This document shows positions 38,283 to 44,933 of a stretch of DNA of 64,000 nucleotides, piece by piece. The position numbers were made by a program, and so were the translations under genes. How positions within the stretch are numbered: position 1 is the stretch's first letter; every line of letters starts with the position of its first letter. The notes beneath the pieces were generated by a model. It worked only from the letters and a program-made list of their open reading frames with translations, was not told where the DNA came from and did no database searches. The DNA is taken from positions 992,001-1,056,000 of the forward strand of contig NZ_CP125652.1 in the NCBI RefSeq assembly GCF_030053135.1, in the 5' to 3' direction. This stretch comes from Rhizobium sp. BT04. Its GTDB lineage: Bacteria > Pseudomonadota > Alphaproteobacteria > Rhizobiales > Rhizobiaceae.

Positions 38283-39218
38283 CTAAGGCGCGAGCGTCTG
38301 CTTGATTTGCCAGCGATCGTGATACCAGAGCCACTGTTCCGGATATTCCCGCACCCAGCTTTCCACCTTGTCGTTGAGTAGCTGGGCGGCCGCCGGCAGG
38401 TCGAGATTGCCCTTGGCGTCGCGCGGCATATCCAGCCGCGGCTCGATTTCCAGCCGGTAGCGATTTCCGGGCAGCCGGATGCAGCGCGCCGGATAGACCT
38501 CGCAATCGAACTGGCGCACCAGCTTCGGCAGCAGCGGATTGGTCTTGACCTCGCGTCCGAAGAAGGTGCCCTTCAGCCCCTTGCGGAATTTCTGGTCGAC
38601 GAGCACGCCCACGCCCTGGCCTGCTTCCAGCTGCCGGGCGAGCGCGAAGGAGGAGCCGGCATGCGAGGGCACCAGCTTGCCCATGCGCACGCTCCTGAAG
38701 TCGAACACCTTCTTGGCGACATAAGGATTGTTCGGCGGCCGGAAGAGCACGGTCACATGAAGCCCGAAGGCAGCGCCGGCCACCGGCAACAGTTCGAAGT
38801 TGGCGGTATGGCCGGTGAAAACGATGAAGGGCCGCGGATTGTCACGCAGGTCGAGAAAGACAGGGATGCCCGACACCTCCACCCTGCCCGGCTCCAACTT
38901 TTCGGGATCGAAATCGAACAACTGGTCGAGGAAGACATATTCGGCGGCCAGCCGACCCATATTGCCCCAGCTGCCGAGTGCGATCTCCTCGATCTCAGCC
39001 TCGCTCTTCTCGGGGAAGGCGTTGCGCAGATTGGTCAGCATCAGCCTGTGGCGGCGGGTCCGCCGGCCGAGGCGGCGCATCAGCCTGTCGGCGAAGCGGA
39101 TCGCGCCATCGGCCGGAAATAGCTTCAGCACATTCAGGAAACCGAACATTACCTGGGCCACCAGCCATTGCTGGAAATTCCTCAGCGCCAGAACGATTCG
39201 GGTGATGAAGAGCTTCAC
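38283..39218 (-). CDS. lpxXL: Lipid A acyltransferase LpxXL (very-long-chain acyl transfer)
   Basis: A 311-residue LpxL/HtrB-family protein with an N-terminal membrane segment and the acyltransferase motif HTANFE (HX4E, about residue 134 in TGHTANFELLPV), and RxxxxFRPPNNP following. As last gene of the acpXL cluster it transfers 27-hydroxyoctacosanoate from AcpXL to the 2' secondary position of rhizobial lipid A. GTG 39218 lies 4 bases from the adhXL stop. The role is established for R. leguminosarum and S. meliloti orthologues; here it is assigned by position and family. Confidence 0.9.
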   Translation of the reverse strand: MKLFITRIVLALRNFQQWLVAQVMFGFLNVLKLFPADGAIRFADRLMRRLGRRTRRHRLMLTNLRNAFPEKSEAEIEEIALGSWGNMGRLAAEYVFLDQLFDFDPEKLEPGRVEVSGIPVFLDLRDNPRPFIVFTGHTANFELLPVAGAAFGLHVTVLFRPPNNPYVAKKVFDFRSVRMGKLVPSHAGSSFALARQLEAGQGVGVLVDQKFRKGLKGTFFGREVKTNPLLPKLVRQFDCEVYPARCIRLPGNRYRLEIEPRLDMPRDAKGNLDLPAAAQLLNDKVESWVREYPEQWLWYHDRWQIKQTLAP

Positions 39219-39222
39219 GCGG

Positions 39223-40251
39223 TCAATCCATCTTCAGGATGATCTTGCCGAAGATCTGGCGCGATTCCATCCGTTCCAATGCCCGGTCGATATCGCTGAA
39301 GCTGACCTCGGTGTCGATGACGGGATGGACGAGTCCACGGCCCATTTTCTGCATCGCATCCGCCATGTTCTCCATGCGGCAGCCGAAGGAGCCGAAGAGC
39401 TTCAATTGCTGCTGAAACAGCATCATCAGGTTCATCTCGGTGGAAACACCCGAGGTCGACCCGCAGGTGACGAGCCGCCCGCCGCGCTTCATGCAGAGCA
39501 TCGAGCCGGCCCAGGTATCCTTGCCGACATGTTCGAAGACGACGTCGACACCCTTCTTCTTGGTGAGCTTGCGCACCACGCCCTCGAAGCGTTCGGTGCG
39601 GTAGTTGATGACGTGATCGGCGCCGAGCGCCTTGGCCTTTTCGATCTTGTCGTCGGATCCGACCGTAGTGATGACGGTGCAGCCGATCTTCTTGGCAAGC
39701 TGGATCGCCGCCGTTCCGATGCCGGAGCCGCCGGCATGGACGAGGATCGTCTCGCCGGGCTCGAGCTTGGCATTGTCGAACAGCATGTGCTCGACGGTGC
39801 CGAAGGTAACGGGCGCAAGCGCCGCGCCGATCGCGTCGACGCCGGGAGGGGCCGGTACTAACAGACGCGAGGGAAGGTTGACCTTCTCCTGCGCAAAGCC
39901 ATCGAGATGGAAGCCGTGCACGCCGGAAACATGTTCGCAGAGATTGTCGCGGCCTTCGCGGCAGGGACGGCAGAGGCCGCAGGTGCGCGCGCCGTAAATG
40001 GAGACGAGCTGGCCCGGCAGCACGTTGGCGACGCCCGGCCCGATCGCCTCGACGACGCCAGAAGCTTCCGCACCGATGACCAGCGGCATCTTGCGCTTGG
40101 CAAAAGCCATGCCGCGCCAGCCCCAGACGTCGATATGATTGAGCGCCACCGCCTTGACACGCAACGTCACCTCGCCGGCGGCAGGCGCGTCCGGTTCCGG
40201 CAGGTCGGTGATCTCAAGTTTGCGGTCATCGATCAGTTGCAAAGCGCGCAT
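39223..40251 (-). CDS. adhXL: Zinc-binding alcohol dehydrogenase-family protein (adhXL)
   Basis: A 342-residue MDR-family oxidoreductase from ATG 40251 (MRALQLIDDRK). It has structural-zinc cysteines in RTCGLCRPCREGRDNLC and the nucleotide motif GGSGIGTAAIQLAKK. In this cluster it is thought to serve as the reductase (enoyl- or ketoacyl-) of C28 chain elongation; its exact reaction is not proven. The frame extends to TTG 40272, but the ATG has GAGG 9 bases upstream. Confidence 0.88.
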   Translation of the reverse strand: MRALQLIDDRKLEITDLPEPDAPAAGEVTLRVKAVALNHIDVWGWRGMAFAKRKMPLVIGAEASGVVEAIGPGVANVLPGQLVSIYGARTCGLCRPCREGRDNLCEHVSGVHGFHLDGFAQEKVNLPSRLLVPAPPGVDAIGAALAPVTFGTVEHMLFDNAKLEPGETILVHAGGSGIGTAAIQLAKKIGCTVITTVGSDDKIEKAKALGADHVINYRTERFEGVVRKLTKKKGVDVVFEHVGKDTWAGSMLCMKRGGRLVTCGSTSGVSTEMNLMMLFQQQLKLFGSFGCRMENMADAMQKMGRGLVHPVIDTEVSFSDIDRALERMESRQIFGKIILKMD

Positions 40252-40307
40252 GGCAAAATCCCTCGCCTTCAAGACGGTCTTCTTGTTTTGAAATTGTCGC
40301 GAACCGC

Positions 40308-41594
40308 TTAAGCCGGTTCGAGCGCCATGACAAGGCTGGCATTCTGCCCGCCGAAGCCGAAGGAGTTGGAAAGCACGGCTGAAACCTGAGCTTCCCGCTT
40401 CTTGTTCGGCACGACATCCAGAACGATCGACGGATCGGGGTTGTTATAGTTGATGGTCGGCGGCAGCGTCCCGGTCAGCATCGTCTGCAGCGAGAAAACC
40501 GCCTCGACGGCGCCGGCCGCCGTCAGCGTGTGGCCGATCATCGACTTGTTCGACGAGACCGGAATGCCGACCAGCTTCTCACCGAAGACGGCTGACATCG
40601 AACCATATTCCATCTTGTCGTTCTCAGGCGTCGAGGTGCCGTGGGCATTGATATAGCCGATATCGCCCTCGCTCATGCCGGCATCGGCGAGCGCTGCGCG
40701 GATCGTCGCAATCGCCGGGCCGCCGTCAGGCGACGACCGGGTGCGGTGGAAGCTATCGGCCTTGTCGCCGGCGCCCTTCATGATGCCGAGCACCTTGGCG
40801 CCGCGGGCAACCGCTGATTCCAGCGATTCCAGCACCAGCGTCGCCGCGCCTTCGGCGATGACGAAGCCGTCGCGATCCTTGCTGAACGGCTTGGAGGCCT
40901 TGGTCGGCGGATCGTTCTGGGTCGAAAGCGCAGACAGCAGCGAGAAGCGGATCAGCGCTTCGGCGCTCAGCGAGCCGTCGGTCGCAACCGTCAGCGCCCG
41001 GGTCGTACGGCCCTGGCGGATTGCCTCGATGCCGAGCTGGATCGCCGTGACGCCCGAAGCGCAGGCGGTCGACAGCGTCACGGGAAGGCCGCGGGTGCCG
41101 AACCGGTCGGCAAGGCGCTCGGAAATAGCGCCGAACAGTGCTGCCTCATGGAACGCCGGGTCCGGCCGCTGGCGCAGCGCCGTCAGGAAGCGCTCATAGG
41201 CATCCCCCGGATGATCGGATGCCGGCGAACGGTCGGCAAGCTCGAAACGCGCGCTCCATTCCGGCTCGATCGGCGGGGCGGCGAGGAACAGCGGGCCGTT
41301 GAAATCGCCGGAAAGGCCGGCATCGGCCAGCGCCTCGATCGTCGTTTCGCGGGCGAAGGCATAGGAACGCTCGACGGCGTTCGGCGCCGGAATGCCGATG
41401 AAATCGACCGTGCCGGCAATGCGCGTCGACAGTCCCTCGGTCGGGAAGCGGTTGATCTCGTGGATGCCCGACGTTCCGGAGGTCAGGGCCGACCAGTTGT
41501 CGCTGAGGCCCTGGCCGAGCGAGGTGATGATGCCCATGCCTGTGACGGCAACGATCGGACGGCCGAGATGATCCCTGTAAGCGGAAGCTGTCAT
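40308..41594 (-). CDS. fabF1XL: 3-oxoacyl-ACP synthase II FabF1XL
   Basis: A 428-residue condensing enzyme with a complete catalytic triad: Cys178 in STACASGVTA, His in NAHGTSTPEND and His in IGHTLTAAGAVE. It belongs to the FabF/KAS II family and elongates acyl chains on AcpXL towards C28. ATG 41594 follows GAGGAGTAAGG. It lies 11 bases downstream of fabF2XL, whose product lacks the cysteine; the two probably form a heterodimer (see findings). Confidence 0.93.
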   Translation of the reverse strand: MTASAYRDHLGRPIVAVTGMGIITSLGQGLSDNWSALTSGTSGIHEINRFPTEGLSTRIAGTVDFIGIPAPNAVERSYAFARETTIEALADAGLSGDFNGPLFLAAPPIEPEWSARFELADRSPASDHPGDAYERFLTALRQRPDPAFHEAALFGAISERLADRFGTRGLPVTLSTACASGVTAIQLGIEAIRQGRTTRALTVATDGSLSAEALIRFSLLSALSTQNDPPTKASKPFSKDRDGFVIAEGAATLVLESLESAVARGAKVLGIMKGAGDKADSFHRTRSSPDGGPAIATIRAALADAGMSEGDIGYINAHGTSTPENDKMEYGSMSAVFGEKLVGIPVSSNKSMIGHTLTAAGAVEAVFSLQTMLTGTLPPTINYNNPDPSIVLDVVPNKKREAQVSAVLSNSFGFGGQNASLVMALEPA

Positions 41595-41605
41595 GTCCTT
41601 ACTCC

Positions 41606-42811
41606 TCACGCATCTGCGGAAAGAACGGCAACGCCCTCGCCGCGCTGGTGGCCGACCGTGGTCACGATGGCGGCAGTGGCGCCTGCCCGCATCGGCGCCT
41701 CATGGGCGGCATCGAAGGGCGGAACCTTGGCCTTGCCGTCGACGGCAAGGGCTGCGAGCGCCAGACCCAGCGTGAACTGCGTCTCGATCGTATGGCCGGT
41801 GACGCCGCCGAAGCCGCGGATTGCAACGTCGGGCAATTGATGTTCGAGCACCGCCCGCTCGCGGGCGGCAAGATCGTGCATGCCGGTCGAACCGGAAAAG
41901 ATCGCCGTGCTCTCGGCGGCAAGGCCGGCGGCCGGCGCCAGGAGGCGCTCCAGCCGGACTTCGAAATTACCGGCATTGCGATTGCCGCGGTCGCCCTCGA
42001 CGGCGTCGATGACGGCATAGATATGGGCGCCGCGGGCTCTAGCATGCTGGCGCGATTCGAGCACCAGGAAGGCGCCTGCCGAACCGGTGATCATGCCGCC
42101 GCCGTCGCTGGGTCTGCGCGACCAGAGCGGCACCCAGTCGCCGCGCGCATGGGCGCCGATCGCCTCTGTGAGCAGGATCATGTCGGGCCGCTCGGCCGCA
42201 AAGGCGCCGCCAACCAGCGCATGCGAGGATTCGCCGGATTTGATGCGGTAGAAGGCGGTCTCGACGGCCGAAATGCCAGCCGCTTCTTCACCCATGAAGG
42301 TGCGTGACGAGCCGGTGACCTTGTGCACGATCGAAATATTGCCGGCGAGCAGGTTGGAAAGCTGGGCGAGAAACAGCGTCGGCCTGAGTTCGGTCGTCAG
42401 CTTCTCGTTCAAAAGCAGCTCGCGGTCATTGCGCTTCAGCGCCTCGTCGACGATCAGCGTATCGACATTGATGTCGCGCTCGCCGCCGCCGGCCGCCACA
42501 ATCATGTCCATCGTGCCGCAGGCTTCGATATCGTCCTTGAAACCGGCATCGTCGAGTGCCAAGCCGGCGGCGAAGACGCCGATGCGCTGCCAGTTCTCCA
42601 TCTGGCGCTGGTCGCCGCGCTTGGCGATCTGCTGCGACCAGTCGATCTCCGGCAGCGGATGCACCGGATAGGGCTTGAACTTCTCGGTCTCGACGATCGC
42701 CTTGGGCGCGCTTGCGGCCGAAAGCAGCGCGATATGCGCATCCTTGCCGACGCCCTGACAGGTGACGATGCCGATGCCCGAGATGACGACGTCGTTTGCA
42801 GCCTTGCTCAT
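41606..42811 (-). CDS. fabF2XL: Condensing-enzyme homologue FabF2XL lacking the catalytic cysteine
   Basis: A 401-residue thiolase-fold protein of the KAS II family. The active-site segment reads MGEEAAGISAVE where FabF1XL has TACASGVTAIQ, so Glu176 replaces the catalytic Cys. The first histidine motif (HGTST) is replaced by SGSTGM, while the second (VTGHTIET) is kept. It should be unable to form an acyl-enzyme. The EEAAG segment resembles that of polyketide chain-length factors, which carry Gln at this position. Start MSKAANDVVISGIG overlaps the fabZXL stop (ATGA type). Confidence 0.9.
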   Translation of the reverse strand: MSKAANDVVISGIGIVTCQGVGKDAHIALLSAASAPKAIVETEKFKPYPVHPLPEIDWSQQIAKRGDQRQMENWQRIGVFAAGLALDDAGFKDDIEACGTMDMIVAAGGGERDINVDTLIVDEALKRNDRELLLNEKLTTELRPTLFLAQLSNLLAGNISIVHKVTGSSRTFMGEEAAGISAVETAFYRIKSGESSHALVGGAFAAERPDMILLTEAIGAHARGDWVPLWSRRPSDGGGMITGSAGAFLVLESRQHARARGAHIYAVIDAVEGDRGNRNAGNFEVRLERLLAPAAGLAAESTAIFSGSTGMHDLAARERAVLEHQLPDVAIRGFGGVTGHTIETQFTLGLALAALAVDGKAKVPPFDAAHEAPMRAGATAAIVTTVGHQRGEGVAVLSADA

Positions 42812-43290
42812 CCAATCACTCCCTGAGCCGCGATCGCTTCCAAAAGCCCGATCTCGCCGGCACGTTTCTTCACGATATCGCCGAGCGGCACCTCGGAAAA
42901 CGGCATAGTGCGAAGCTTCAGCTGCGCATCGCAGACCTTCTTGCCGCCGCTGGTGATTTTAGCCTTGGTGACCGCAAAACCCGAACCATCGTGCTCGAGC
43001 ACCGCCTCGATGTCGAGCACGGCTTCCGGTTCGACGAAGGTGCGCATCTTGGCGCCGTCGACCGTCATCAGGAAGGGCATGGCGGCGAAATTGGTGACGG
43101 CGAGCACCAGCATGCCGGAGGCCTGCGCCATGGTCTCGATCAGGAGCACGCCGGGAACCAGCGGCATGCCGGGAAAATGGCCCTCGAAGACGGGGCTCTT
43201 GGCCGGCACGACGGATCGCGCCTTGAGCGTGCCCTTCTTCAGGTCCACCGCTTCGACGCGGTCAATCATCTGGAAATATTCCAGCAGCAT
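42808..43290 (-). CDS. fabZXL: 3-hydroxyacyl-ACP dehydratase FabZXL
   Basis: A 160-residue hotdog-fold protein from ATG 43290 (MLLEYFQMIDRVE), with GGAGG 6 bases upstream. The FabZ signature GHFPGMPLVPGVLLIE near residue 55 carries the catalytic His. A longer frame upstream runs through a repeat and is not coding. It dehydrates hydroxyacyl-AcpXL intermediates during C28 acid synthesis. Its stop overlaps the fabF2XL start by 4 bases. Confidence 0.9.
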   Translation of the reverse strand: MLLEYFQMIDRVEAVDLKKGTLKARSVVPAKSPVFEGHFPGMPLVPGVLLIETMAQASGMLVLAVTNFAAMPFLMTVDGAKMRTFVEPEAVLDIEAVLEHDGSGFAVTKAKITSGGKKVCDAQLKLRTMPFSEVPLGDIVKKRAGEIGLLEAIAAQGVIG

Positions 43291-43332
43291 TCGGATCCTC
43301 CGGCCCGACAGGCCAGATCCGCCCGCCGGTGA

Positions 43333-43425
43333 CGCCTGAAGCGCGTCGCACTTCAGGTCTTTGTTCTTGTACATGCCGTTGTCCCAAAACCGCTGCACAC
43401 ATTTGGGCGGCGTGCACTAGTTAGG
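43333..43425. repeat. Rhizobial intergenic repeat between acpXL and fabZXL
   Basis: Contains a stretch reading, on the minus strand, AACCGCTGCACAC-like in reverse, CATGTACAAGAACAAAGACC and GCGACGCGC. The same kind of element is common upstream of genes in Rhizobiaceae. It is GC-rich and forms the bulk of the 199-base gap. The family identification is from memory. Confidence 0.4.
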
Positions 43426-43489: not shown

Positions 43490-43768
43490 TCAGGCCTTGG
43501 CTGCTTTGAGCTCGTCGATCTTGGCGCAGAGGTTCTTCAGCACGAAATATTCTTCGGTGGAAACCTTGCCCTCGTTGACTTCCTGCGTCCACTTTTCGAG
43601 CGGAATCTTGATGCCGAATTCCTTGTCGATCGCAAAGACGATATCGAGGAAATCGAGACTGTCGATACCGAGGTCGTCGATCGTATGGCTCTCCGGCGTG
43701 ATCGTCGCGCGGTCGATCTCGCTGGTTTCTGCAATAATGTCGGCAACTTTATCGAATGTAGCGGTCAC
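43490..43768 (-). CDS. acpXL: Specialised acyl carrier protein AcpXL
   Basis: A 92-residue acyl carrier protein starting [14 protein letters not shown] (GTG 43768, GAGG 8 bases upstream). Ser37 in [10 protein letters not shown] receives the 4'-phosphopantetheine. Length and sequence match rhizobial AcpXL, which carries the growing 27-hydroxyoctacosanoate. The frame is open to TTG 43831, but that adds residues absent from known AcpXL. The gene is first in the cluster and is divergent from fnrN. Confidence 0.95.
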
Positions 43769-44040
43769 GCGCTGTACCTCATGAAATGACGATTTAAACC
43801 TCCTCATAGGCAAATCCATTTCAAAAGCCAATGCTTTCGTCCGGGCGTTGCGGCAATTTGCCGGCCGGGTGTTGCCTAAACAGCAATGGAATGCAGGCCT
43901 TTGCCATCATCGGGGCTACAGGCGATGCCGGTGCCGGAAGCCCGCTGCGCCAGCGGAGCGACCAAACCGTCCGAATCAAAACCGCGTGCGGCCTTCCCCT
44001 CTCGCAAACGCCTCCCCGCAGGAACCGCAGGCACCGACAG

Positions 44041-44210: not shown

Positions 44211-44933
44211 ATGGACGTCGCACATGGTGAGGTTCTCGAGCTTGGCATCCCCGTCGCCTGCCGGTCCTGCCAGGCGCGGCAGGGCGTCGTCTGCGGCGCC
44301 TTGTCGAGCAGCCAGCTGCGTGAACTCGGCCGCCACTCGCTGCGCCGCAAGGTCGATGCCGGCTGCGAGATCGTCGCCCAAGGGTCGGAAAGCTCTTTCT
44401 ATTCGAACATCATGCGCGGCGTGGTGAAGCTCTGCAAGGTGATGCCAGACGGGCGCCAGCAGATCGTCGGCCTGCAATTCGCCCCCGATTTCATCGGCAG
44501 GCCTTTCGTGCGCGAAAGCACGCTGTCGGCCGAGGCTGCGACCGATGCCGAAATCTGCGTCTTCCCCCGCAACCTGCTCGACCGCATGATATCGGAGACG
44601 CCGGAGCTGCAGCGCAGTCTGCACGATCAGGCGCTGAAGGAGCTGGATGCCGCGCGCGAATGGATGCTGACGCTCGGCCGGCGCACTGCCGAGGAAAAGG
44701 TCGCAAGCCTGCTCCACCTCATCGCCACCCATGCCGAGCCGCAAAGGGCAACAAGCGCCGCCTTCGACCTGCCGCTGTCACGCGCCGAGATCGCCGACTT
44801 TCTCGGGCTGACGATCGAAACCGTCAGCCGCCAGATGACCAGGCTGCGCAAGAGCGGCGTCATCCGCATCGAGAATTTCCGACATATCATCGTCCCCGAC
44901 ATGCATGAGCTGGAAAAGAAGATCAGCACGTAA
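44211..44933 (+). CDS. fnrN: FnrN, Crp/Fnr-family oxygen-sensing regulator
   Basis: A 240-residue protein. The N-terminal cysteines C17, C20 and C28 (ACRSCQARQGVVC) and a fourth in EICVFP match the FNR cluster-ligand pattern, so it should bind an oxygen-labile 4Fe-4S cluster. The C-terminal recognition helix TIETVSRQMTRL has the E-SR motif that reads TTGAT sites. Two perfect anaeroboxes lie upstream. In rhizobia FnrN activates fixNOQP/fixGHIS and hemN-type genes under microaerobic conditions. It lies divergent from acpXL. Confidence 0.94.
   Translation: MDVAHGEVLELGIPVACRSCQARQGVVCGALSSSQLRELGRHSLRRKVDAGCEIVAQGSESSFYSNIMRGVVKLCKVMPDGRQQIVGLQFAPDFIGRPFVRESTLSAEAATDAEICVFPRNLLDRMISETPELQRSLHDQALKELDAAREWMLTLGRRTAEEKVASLLHLIATHAEPQRATSAAFDLPLSRAEIADFLGLTIETVSRQMTRLRKSGVIRIENFRHIIVPDMHELEKKIST

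Follow-up and report, generated by a model that had tools for sequence, protein, structure and literature searches.

Gene content of the locus

The window analysed here is a 64,000-nucleotide stretch of the Rhizobium sp. BT04 genome (contig NZ_CP125652.1, positions 992,001 to 1,056,000 of the forward strand). On its minus strand lie, in order, acpXL, fabZXL, fabF2XL, fabF1XL, adh2XL and lpxXL, and the genes from acpXL to lpxXL are the known cluster for the 27-hydroxyoctacosanoate of lipid A. The dedicated acyl carrier protein is encoded by acpXL (43490..43831), which was read from a TTG and whose family model begins at residue 22. The dehydratase gene fabZXL (42808..43398; 3-hydroxyacyl-ACP dehydratase) overlaps the start of fabF2XL by 4 bases. 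The open reading frame of fabF2XL (41606..42811, 401 aa; NCBIfam PRK06519, 624.8 bits) encodes a presumably inactive ketosynthase homologue without the catalytic Cys, first His and Lys, which we propose to be a partner subunit resembling a chain length factor (CLF). Its neighbor fabF1XL (40308..41609; PRK06501, 760 bits) encodes an active-type ketosynthase (KS) with the Cys, His, His and Lys of that class. The remaining two genes are adh2XL (39223..40272), of the zinc-type alcohol dehydrogenase/quinone reductase family, for which no listed model scored above its cut-off, and lpxXL (38283..39218; model PRK06553, 499 bits), the acyltransferase of the very-long-chain fatty acid (VLCFA) to lipid A. 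A gene for a Crp/Fnr-type regulator, in which a cluster of N-terminal Cys residues was seen by eye, lies upstream of acpXL in divergent orientation (window 44211-44933).

The fabF1XL product has 433 aa when read from a GTG start and 428 aa when read from the ATG at 41594. The ATG, which has GAGGAG ahead of it, is the more likely start. It stands 11 bases beyond the fabF2XL stop, and numbering from it makes the catalytic residue Cys178, as in an earlier note on this DNA. Based on BLASTP, FabF2XL and FabF1XL are 24% identical across 103 residues. Of the two Pfam ketoacyl-synthase domains, FabF2XL matches the N-terminal one alone, and FabF1XL matches both. A protein named R. leguminosarum shares 99% identity with FabF2XL. 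The NCBIfam model NF005084 (PRK06519), which is of the 'equivalog' type, names the Cys-less FabF2XL family a beta-ketoacyl-ACP synthase; such databank names ('synthase') are probably wrong.

Loss of catalytic residues

The alignment places Glu176 of FabF2XL (codon 42286-42284) at the position of the catalytic Cys of FabF1XL, as the earlier note had read it. The hexapeptide GEEAAG aligns to TACASG of FabF1XL, which agrees with the note's EEAAG for ACASG, to TACSTG of the FabF from the same genome, and to AEQAGG of the actinorhodin (Act) CLF. Glu160-Gln161 of the Act CLF fall on Glu175-Glu176, so the Gln that the note ascribed to CLFs does occur there in an E-Q-A-G-G-type context. In the Act CLF sequence used, residues 2-407 match 10-415 of 1tqy_B. 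The first catalytic His motif, AHGTST in FabF1XL, aligns to SGSTGM in FabF2XL, which has no His there; the catalytic Lys is missing as well. GHT is present in both proteins of the window.

We gathered orthologues with the family model from genomes drawn at three taxonomic levels. Whole-genome scores in the class draw were 371-624 bits for 15 of 289 genomes, with the next best match at 94 bits. In the order draw, 78 of 297 genomes were above the FabF2XL cut-off and 79 had a match at E 1e-40. The phylum draw, which was weighted towards kin, gave matches in 31 of 349 genomes, all inside the class. The DNA was read for 64 of the 79 order genomes that carry the pair and for 15/15 class genomes; three genomes of the phylum draw (G803, G831 and G853) were left out. 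A second set came from a scan of named genomes with the patterns SRTFMGEE and LRPT[LHM]FLAQ, from which 80 of 589 confirmed stretches were used. These patterns contain the motifs in question, so this set is not independent evidence for those motifs and the two sets were counted apart. Residue counts are based on 159 of 161 distinct FabF2XL sequences, those longer than 350 aa, and on 158 distinct FabF1XL sequences. The two shorter FabF2XL sequences are one cut by a contig end (L018) and a second copy of 252 aa (L151).

Among the 79 distinct family-model sequences (window included), Glu occupies the Cys column in 79, the first His and the Lys occur in none, and the second His occurs in 70. For the 80 pattern-fetched sequences the corresponding numbers are 80, 0, 0 and 78. 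The orthologue check proposed in the earlier note thus gave no member with a retained Cys (0/79 family-model sequences, 0/159 overall), where a distant Cys-keeping relative below the 371-to-94-bit gap would escape the count because orthologues are defined by family model. Overall, Glu is found in 159/159 and the first His and Lys in 0/159 each. FabF1XL, by comparison, has Cys in 157 sequences and one X, the first His and the Lys in all 158, and the second His in 157 with one gap; in the counterparts of the family-model set, Cys is present in 78 with one X and both His and the Lys in 79/79.

The second His (His340 in the numbering of the window protein) is kept in 148/159 FabF2XL proteins and replaced by Q, T, Y, S or N in the other 11 (L104, L114, L135, L156, L161, L164, L165, L167, L169, L170 and L173; Tyr in L135). 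The note's statement that GHT is kept therefore applies to the window protein and does not extend to the family as a constant.

The codons of Glu175-Glu176, at the Ala-Cys place of the KAS nucleophile elbow, span 42284..42289 on the minus strand, and both residues are invariant (79/79 family-model, 159/159 overall). Also invariant in the 79 family-model sequences are Gly110, Arg112, Asp113, Asp117, Arg143-Pro144-Thr145 and Glu392, and Glu111 is found in 78. Because every orthologue counted carries the same replacement, it is a maintained feature of FabF2XL. Judged from its sequence, FabF2XL is without the residues for condensation by the KAS mechanism: the Cys-His-His-Lys set of active KAS II (FabF) is absent. 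Presumably it also has no condensing activity. As in CLFs, a KAS fold occurs here without the catalytic Cys. The Gln of CLFs, in its E-Q-[AS]-G-G context, is replaced by G-E-E, with the first Glu common to both.

FabF2XL could have traded condensation for another form of catalysis on AcpXL, either malonyl decarboxylation in the manner of KSQ or acyl release, acting through Glu175/Glu176, His340 and Glu392. The conservation of Arg112, Asp113, Glu175, Glu176 and Glu392 (79/79) and of Glu111 (78/79) is at the level usual for active sites, and His340 is present in 148/159. KSQ-type decarboxylases need Gln and both His. FabF2XL has Glu, never the first His or the Lys (0/159), and in 11/159 not the second His, and we rejected its identity as a KSQ-type decarboxylase on the Glu and the two His positions. 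With the second His lost in eleven members, a catalytic role of Glu together with His is unlikely. We regard catalysis of another kind on AcpXL as an unlikely account overall.

Requirement for FabF2XL in vivo

Published genetics bear on the importance of the gene. In A. fabrum, an insertion in fabF2XL removes all VLCFA from lipid A, and fabF2XL alone, supplied in trans on a plasmid, complements the mutant partially (PMC11901934). Mutation of fabF1XL and of fabF2XL proved impossible in Bradyrhizobium ORS278 (PMC5613085), and in S. meliloti both genes are, among others of the cluster, ones whose mutation brings a growth disadvantage (PMC5539429). FabF2XL has no nucleophile, yet the pathway needs it beside an intact ketosynthase, as expected of a partner subunit. 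The absence of VLCFA from the A. fabrum mutant also disfavors synthesis of C28 by a FabF1XL homodimer alone (PMC11901934).

A decaying, unimportant duplicate, or an artefact of annotation or sequencing, would equally have lost its catalytic residues. FabF2XL does evolve faster: at class-level loci (L006-L019) it is 39-48% identical to the window protein, compared with 52-61% for FabF1XL. Decay, however, does not lead to one replacement and many invariant columns in 79/79 family-model orthologues, nor to a gene that is intact across independent genomes, nor to a mutant without VLCFA in the published account (PMC11901934). This reading is almost certainly wrong; as a pseudogene interpretation it is refuted by the mutant phenotype and the invariance.

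Co-occurrence of FabF2XL and FabF1XL

The earlier note had pointed out that fabF1XL and fabF2XL are adjacent, and this is true of the window and far beyond it. FabF1XL is encoded downstream on the same strand, at most 320 bases away, for 158 of 160 non-duplicate FabF2XL genes (78/80 family-model and 80/80 pattern-fetched). The two exceptions are L018, cut by the contig end, and L159, a second copy. Comparison of the sets shows that both families occur in the identical 79 of 297 order genomes. The seven order genomes with two FabF1XL matches also have two FabF2XL matches; in an eighth genome with two FabF2XL rows (G509), one gene is split across two contigs. FabF2XL is present in each of the 14 class-draw genomes that have FabF1XL (>580 bits), and the 15th FabF2XL genome is that of L018, where the gene is at the contig end. 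FabF1XL matches at ≤323 bits in this draw were taken to be other KAS proteins. Like a CLF, FabF2XL is thus encoded beside, and found with, an active KS (158/160 genes, 79/79 order genomes, 14/15 class genomes), and from these occurrence patterns the pair looks obligate.

Next to the original cluster, fabF2XL and fabF1XL have been duplicated together in L151/L152 (family f170) and in L157. Both genes of the second pair have diverged in L151/L152, and the second fabF2XL of L151 encodes just 252 aa. At L159 (G333:C461) a second fabF2XL with GEEMAG has no fabF1XL alongside; the genome's second fabF1XL lies on a different contig (G333:C78). Seven loci that share one genus code (L124, L128, L130-L134) yielded no fabZXL in the interval from acpXL to fabF2XL. 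In Mesorhizobium loti, the housekeeping FabZ stands in for fabZXL, according to PMC7663294.

Could FabF2XL be a homodimeric scaffold that recruits AcpXL, FabZXL or LpxXL and is not paired with FabF1XL? The cluster does have a dedicated carrier protein and a transferase for a scaffold to gather. The joint occurrence and duplication of FabF2XL with FabF1XL is left unexplained by such a scaffold, which we consider quite improbable.

Coevolution between the two proteins (normalised MI with APC, 156 pairs, Neff 51.9) placed both columns in the interface segment for 0 of the top 20 column pairs (0.10 expected), 2 of the top 50 (0.26), 2 of the top 100 (0.52) and 3 of the top 200 (1.04), numbers that are too small to weigh and in which relatedness dominates.

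Conservation across the dimer interface

In KAS dimers, residues 129-140 (FabF numbering) of one protomer line the acyl pocket of the other, with contacts at 133', 134' and 138'. The equivalent in FabF2XL is LRPTLFLAQLSN (residues 142-153; 42353..42388, minus strand). In KasA, a helix-turn-helix arm formed by residues 115-145 shifts along the other protomer when the acyl cavity opens (PMC5025758); by offset from the nucleophile this arm corresponds to FabF 107-137. An ordinary homodimer of FabF1XL would be expected to conserve the segment in FabF1XL itself. A CLF-like FabF2XL predicts conservation on the FabF2XL side, where the segment would look onto the live pocket, and freedom to vary on the FabF1XL side, where it would look onto the dead one.

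Conservation was scored by Jensen-Shannon divergence and expressed as z within each protein. The loop of FabF2XL scored +1.24, with 0.5% of alignment windows as high (38 rows below 68% identity, all from the family-model set). The loop of FabF1XL scored -1.17, with 93% of alignment windows as high or higher (37 rows). Alphaproteobacterial FabF and close KAS proteins, taken as homodimers, scored +0.53 (17 rows). As a positive control, CLFs scored +1.06, again with 0.5% of alignment windows as high (117 rows of 120 listed), and type II KS proteins scored -0.06 (119 rows of 120 listed), the control CLF and KS proteins not being paired genome by genome. The FabF2XL-minus-FabF1XL difference at the loop ranked 3 of 376 alignment windows and the CLF-minus-KS difference 6 of 384. 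When the loop was located by a nucleophile-anchored offset, the values were similar (FabF2XL +1.24, FabF1XL -1.11, FabF +0.53, CLF +1.06, KS -0.07). By a criterion devised in this analysis, FabF2XL thus resembles CLFs in that the subunit without Cys conserves the loop and the KS has it relaxed.

We also compared the difference profiles over whole proteins. The correlation of FabF2XL-FabF1XL with CLF-KS is modest (rho 0.252, 361 columns), falling to 0.224 without the catalytic motifs and 0.174 without the motifs and the loop. Circular shifts reached values as high in 1/341, 0/286 and 1/274 cases, respectively. In other controls, the FabF2XL-FabF1XL difference gave rho -0.189 against KS-FabF and -0.010 against CLF-FabF. 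Based on the loop asymmetry and the profile correlation, FabF2XL relates to FabF1XL as a CLF relates to its KS. A scaffold does not explain why the FabF1XL loop is freed (z -1.17 vs +0.53 in FabF), and alternative catalysis on AcpXL leaves the strongest conservation, that of the partner loop, unaccounted for.

Tunnel end, fold and ancestry

The segment GGGERD (FabF2XL residues 108-113; 42473..42490, minus strand) aligns to the chain-length segment of the Act CLF, a stretch that we take to contain its chain-length residues F109/T112. G110, R112 and D113 are each present in 79 of the 79 family-model sequences and E111 in 78. FabF1XL is without FabF's GSGIGG segment and has a conserved FLA-PP-E-EWP stretch there instead, which implies that the tunnel-end region was rebuilt in both subunits.

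The best matches listed in a fold search with FabF2XL are KAS-family proteins (FabF, FabB, mitochondrial KAS, the ishigamide chain 6kxd_A and the Act CLF); their scores are near-equal, so that fold cannot tell CLF from KS. A quick tree of 58 rows flagged long branches for Priestia_C, an APE ketosynthase and a Serratia ketosynthase. These three and 15 further FabF1XL/FabF2XL rows were dropped for the careful trees (40 rows, with five CLFs, all actinobacterial). FabF2XL and FabF1XL are each set apart by a branch with support of 100/100. The five CLFs join FabF2XL on one branch with support of 98/95 on all columns and 68/77 without 67 columns around the catalytic motifs, and the data do not reject a clade of FabF1XL and FabF2XL (p-AU 0.212 and 0.475). 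A claim of CLF descent, based at first on the 98/95 support, was dropped after this fall. FabF2XL may have arisen by doubling of a FabF1XL ancestor or through kinship with CLFs. By these alignments and trees, it is a lineage of its own, with Glu where CLFs have Gln.

A different arrangement was seen on a Priestia megaterium plasmid (NZ_CP120620.1; L202:1777-4206), where the two halves of an 809-aa open reading frame are an intact ketosynthase (TACSAG) and, fused to it, a Cys-less counterpart (TGNVAG). It lies near genes for a phosphopantetheine-binding protein and FabZ, and the tblastn match of FabF2XL falls on the Cys-less half (E 1e-6). It is apparently a one-chain KS-CLF-like enzyme.

A proposed role for FabF2XL

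We think it likely that FabF2XL is a non-condensing, CLF-like partner of the active FabF1XL, in an asymmetric heterodimer that completes the acyl tunnel. This reading is based on the lost catalytic residues, the invariance, the pairing and the conservation asymmetry, with the need for the gene in VLCFA synthesis taken from print. The earlier note had proposed a chain-length-factor partner instead of an active condensing enzyme. Its case is strengthened on two counts, the missing condensing residues and a CLF-like mode of evolution (invariant Glu, one-to-one pairing, loop asymmetry). Physical binding of the two proteins, and control of C28 length by the pair as opposed to the selectivity of LpxXL or to AcpXL, are what we would predict from the sequences. 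Against the CLF-like reading stand the Glu for the CLF Gln, the second His kept in 148/159, the solitary second copy at L159, the modest profile correlation and the partial complementation.

In the proposed mechanism, FabF2XL would keep the ketosynthase fold, carry out no condensation and pair with FabF1XL as a CLF does with its KS. The growing acyl chain would be held on the FabF1XL Cys only. FabF2XL would supply the partner loop and the tunnel end (GGGERD), completing the acyl tunnel of FabF1XL across the dimer interface, and its own unused pocket would be filled or rebuilt around Glu175-Glu176. Such a tunnel could take AcpXL-bound chains past ordinary fatty-acid length, with elongation to C26-C30. 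More speculatively, GGGERD and the Glu pair could together give the tunnel a polar end by which the chain is limited or sensed. By analogy with ApeO-ApeC and the ishigamide pair, whose cavities contain polar residues, we tentatively suggest, as a rather doubtful extension, that the rhizobial lipid A elongase is a KS-CLF-like heterodimer of separate origin from the polyketide CLFs, in which the Glu-Glu/GGGERD end measures length by sensing either the (omega-1)-hydroxyl or the tip of the C28 chain.

Papers that name fabF2XL call it a synthase or elongation protein in three cases and only list it in a fourth, as far as the passages covered go. Those passages mention neither the lost Cys nor a CLF, in a search that did not extend to the older work of Haag 2011 and Vanderlinde 2009. 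PMC11901934 contains none of the terms catalytic, heterodimer, 'chain length' and condens-. Our literature search returned nothing joining acpXL with 'chain length factor', or 27-hydroxyoctacosanoic with ketosynthase, and 'very-long-chain fatty acid' was absent among the matches listed for ketosynthase, CLF and heterodimer. Priority for the CLF-like reading of FabF2XL is unproven.

The VLCFA of lipid A supports the robustness of the outer membrane in rhizobia and their relatives, and its pathway has been described with two 'synthases'. If one of these is a dead but obligate partner, single-gene phenotypes, the PRK06519 name and attempts to rebuild the pathway need rereading. The C28 ruler would then become a defined target for mutation. 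Loop-conservation asymmetry could also serve as a cheap sequence test for hidden KS-CLF pairs in other systems.

Comparison with known ketosynthase pairs

FabF (KAS II) is a homodimer. Unlike FabF2XL, it has the Cys, first His and Lys, and its partner loop is conserved in FabF itself.

Several features parallel those of the actinorhodin-type KS-CLF (KSalpha/KSbeta; 1tqy). In both systems a KS adjoins a Cys-less partner that has lost the first His, a Glu precedes the replaced Cys (E160-Q161 in the Act CLF, E175-E176 in FabF2XL), and strong conservation of the partner loop is seen in the subunit without Cys but not in the KS. The differences are the Glu of FabF2XL where CLFs have Gln, its mostly kept second His, and the product, a lipid A fatty acid of alphaproteobacteria as opposed to an aromatic polyketide. 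Gene order also differs: the CLF follows the KS in four plasmid loci that we read, whereas FabF2XL precedes FabF1XL here.

Reducing type II chain building by a KS and a CLF, as we propose for FabF2XL, is described for ApeO-ApeC (aryl polyene) and Iga11-Iga12 (ishigamide) in PMC8358021. The ApeO-ApeC cavity ends at His138 of ApeO and Glu142 of ApeC, and Asp113 lines the cavity of the ishigamide pair (PMC8358021). ApeC differs from the full-length FabF2XL in being half the size (in the E. coli CFT073 locus, the gene with the CLF annotation encodes 240 aa), and the ApeO-ApeC product is an aryl polyene.

In the AmcF-AmcG system (cispentacin), a KS works with a cyclisation factor in one elongation plus cyclisation, unlike FabF1XL and FabF2XL; AmcG was compared by description only, and FabF1XL scores 221.7 bits against the AmcF model, under its cut-off of 325. 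AmcG is without functional motifs, and what it does was difficult to foresee before it was found to form a heterodimer with the active KS AmcF (PMC10698177). The example shows that hidden KS partners, of the kind proposed for FabF2XL, do occur (PMC10698177).
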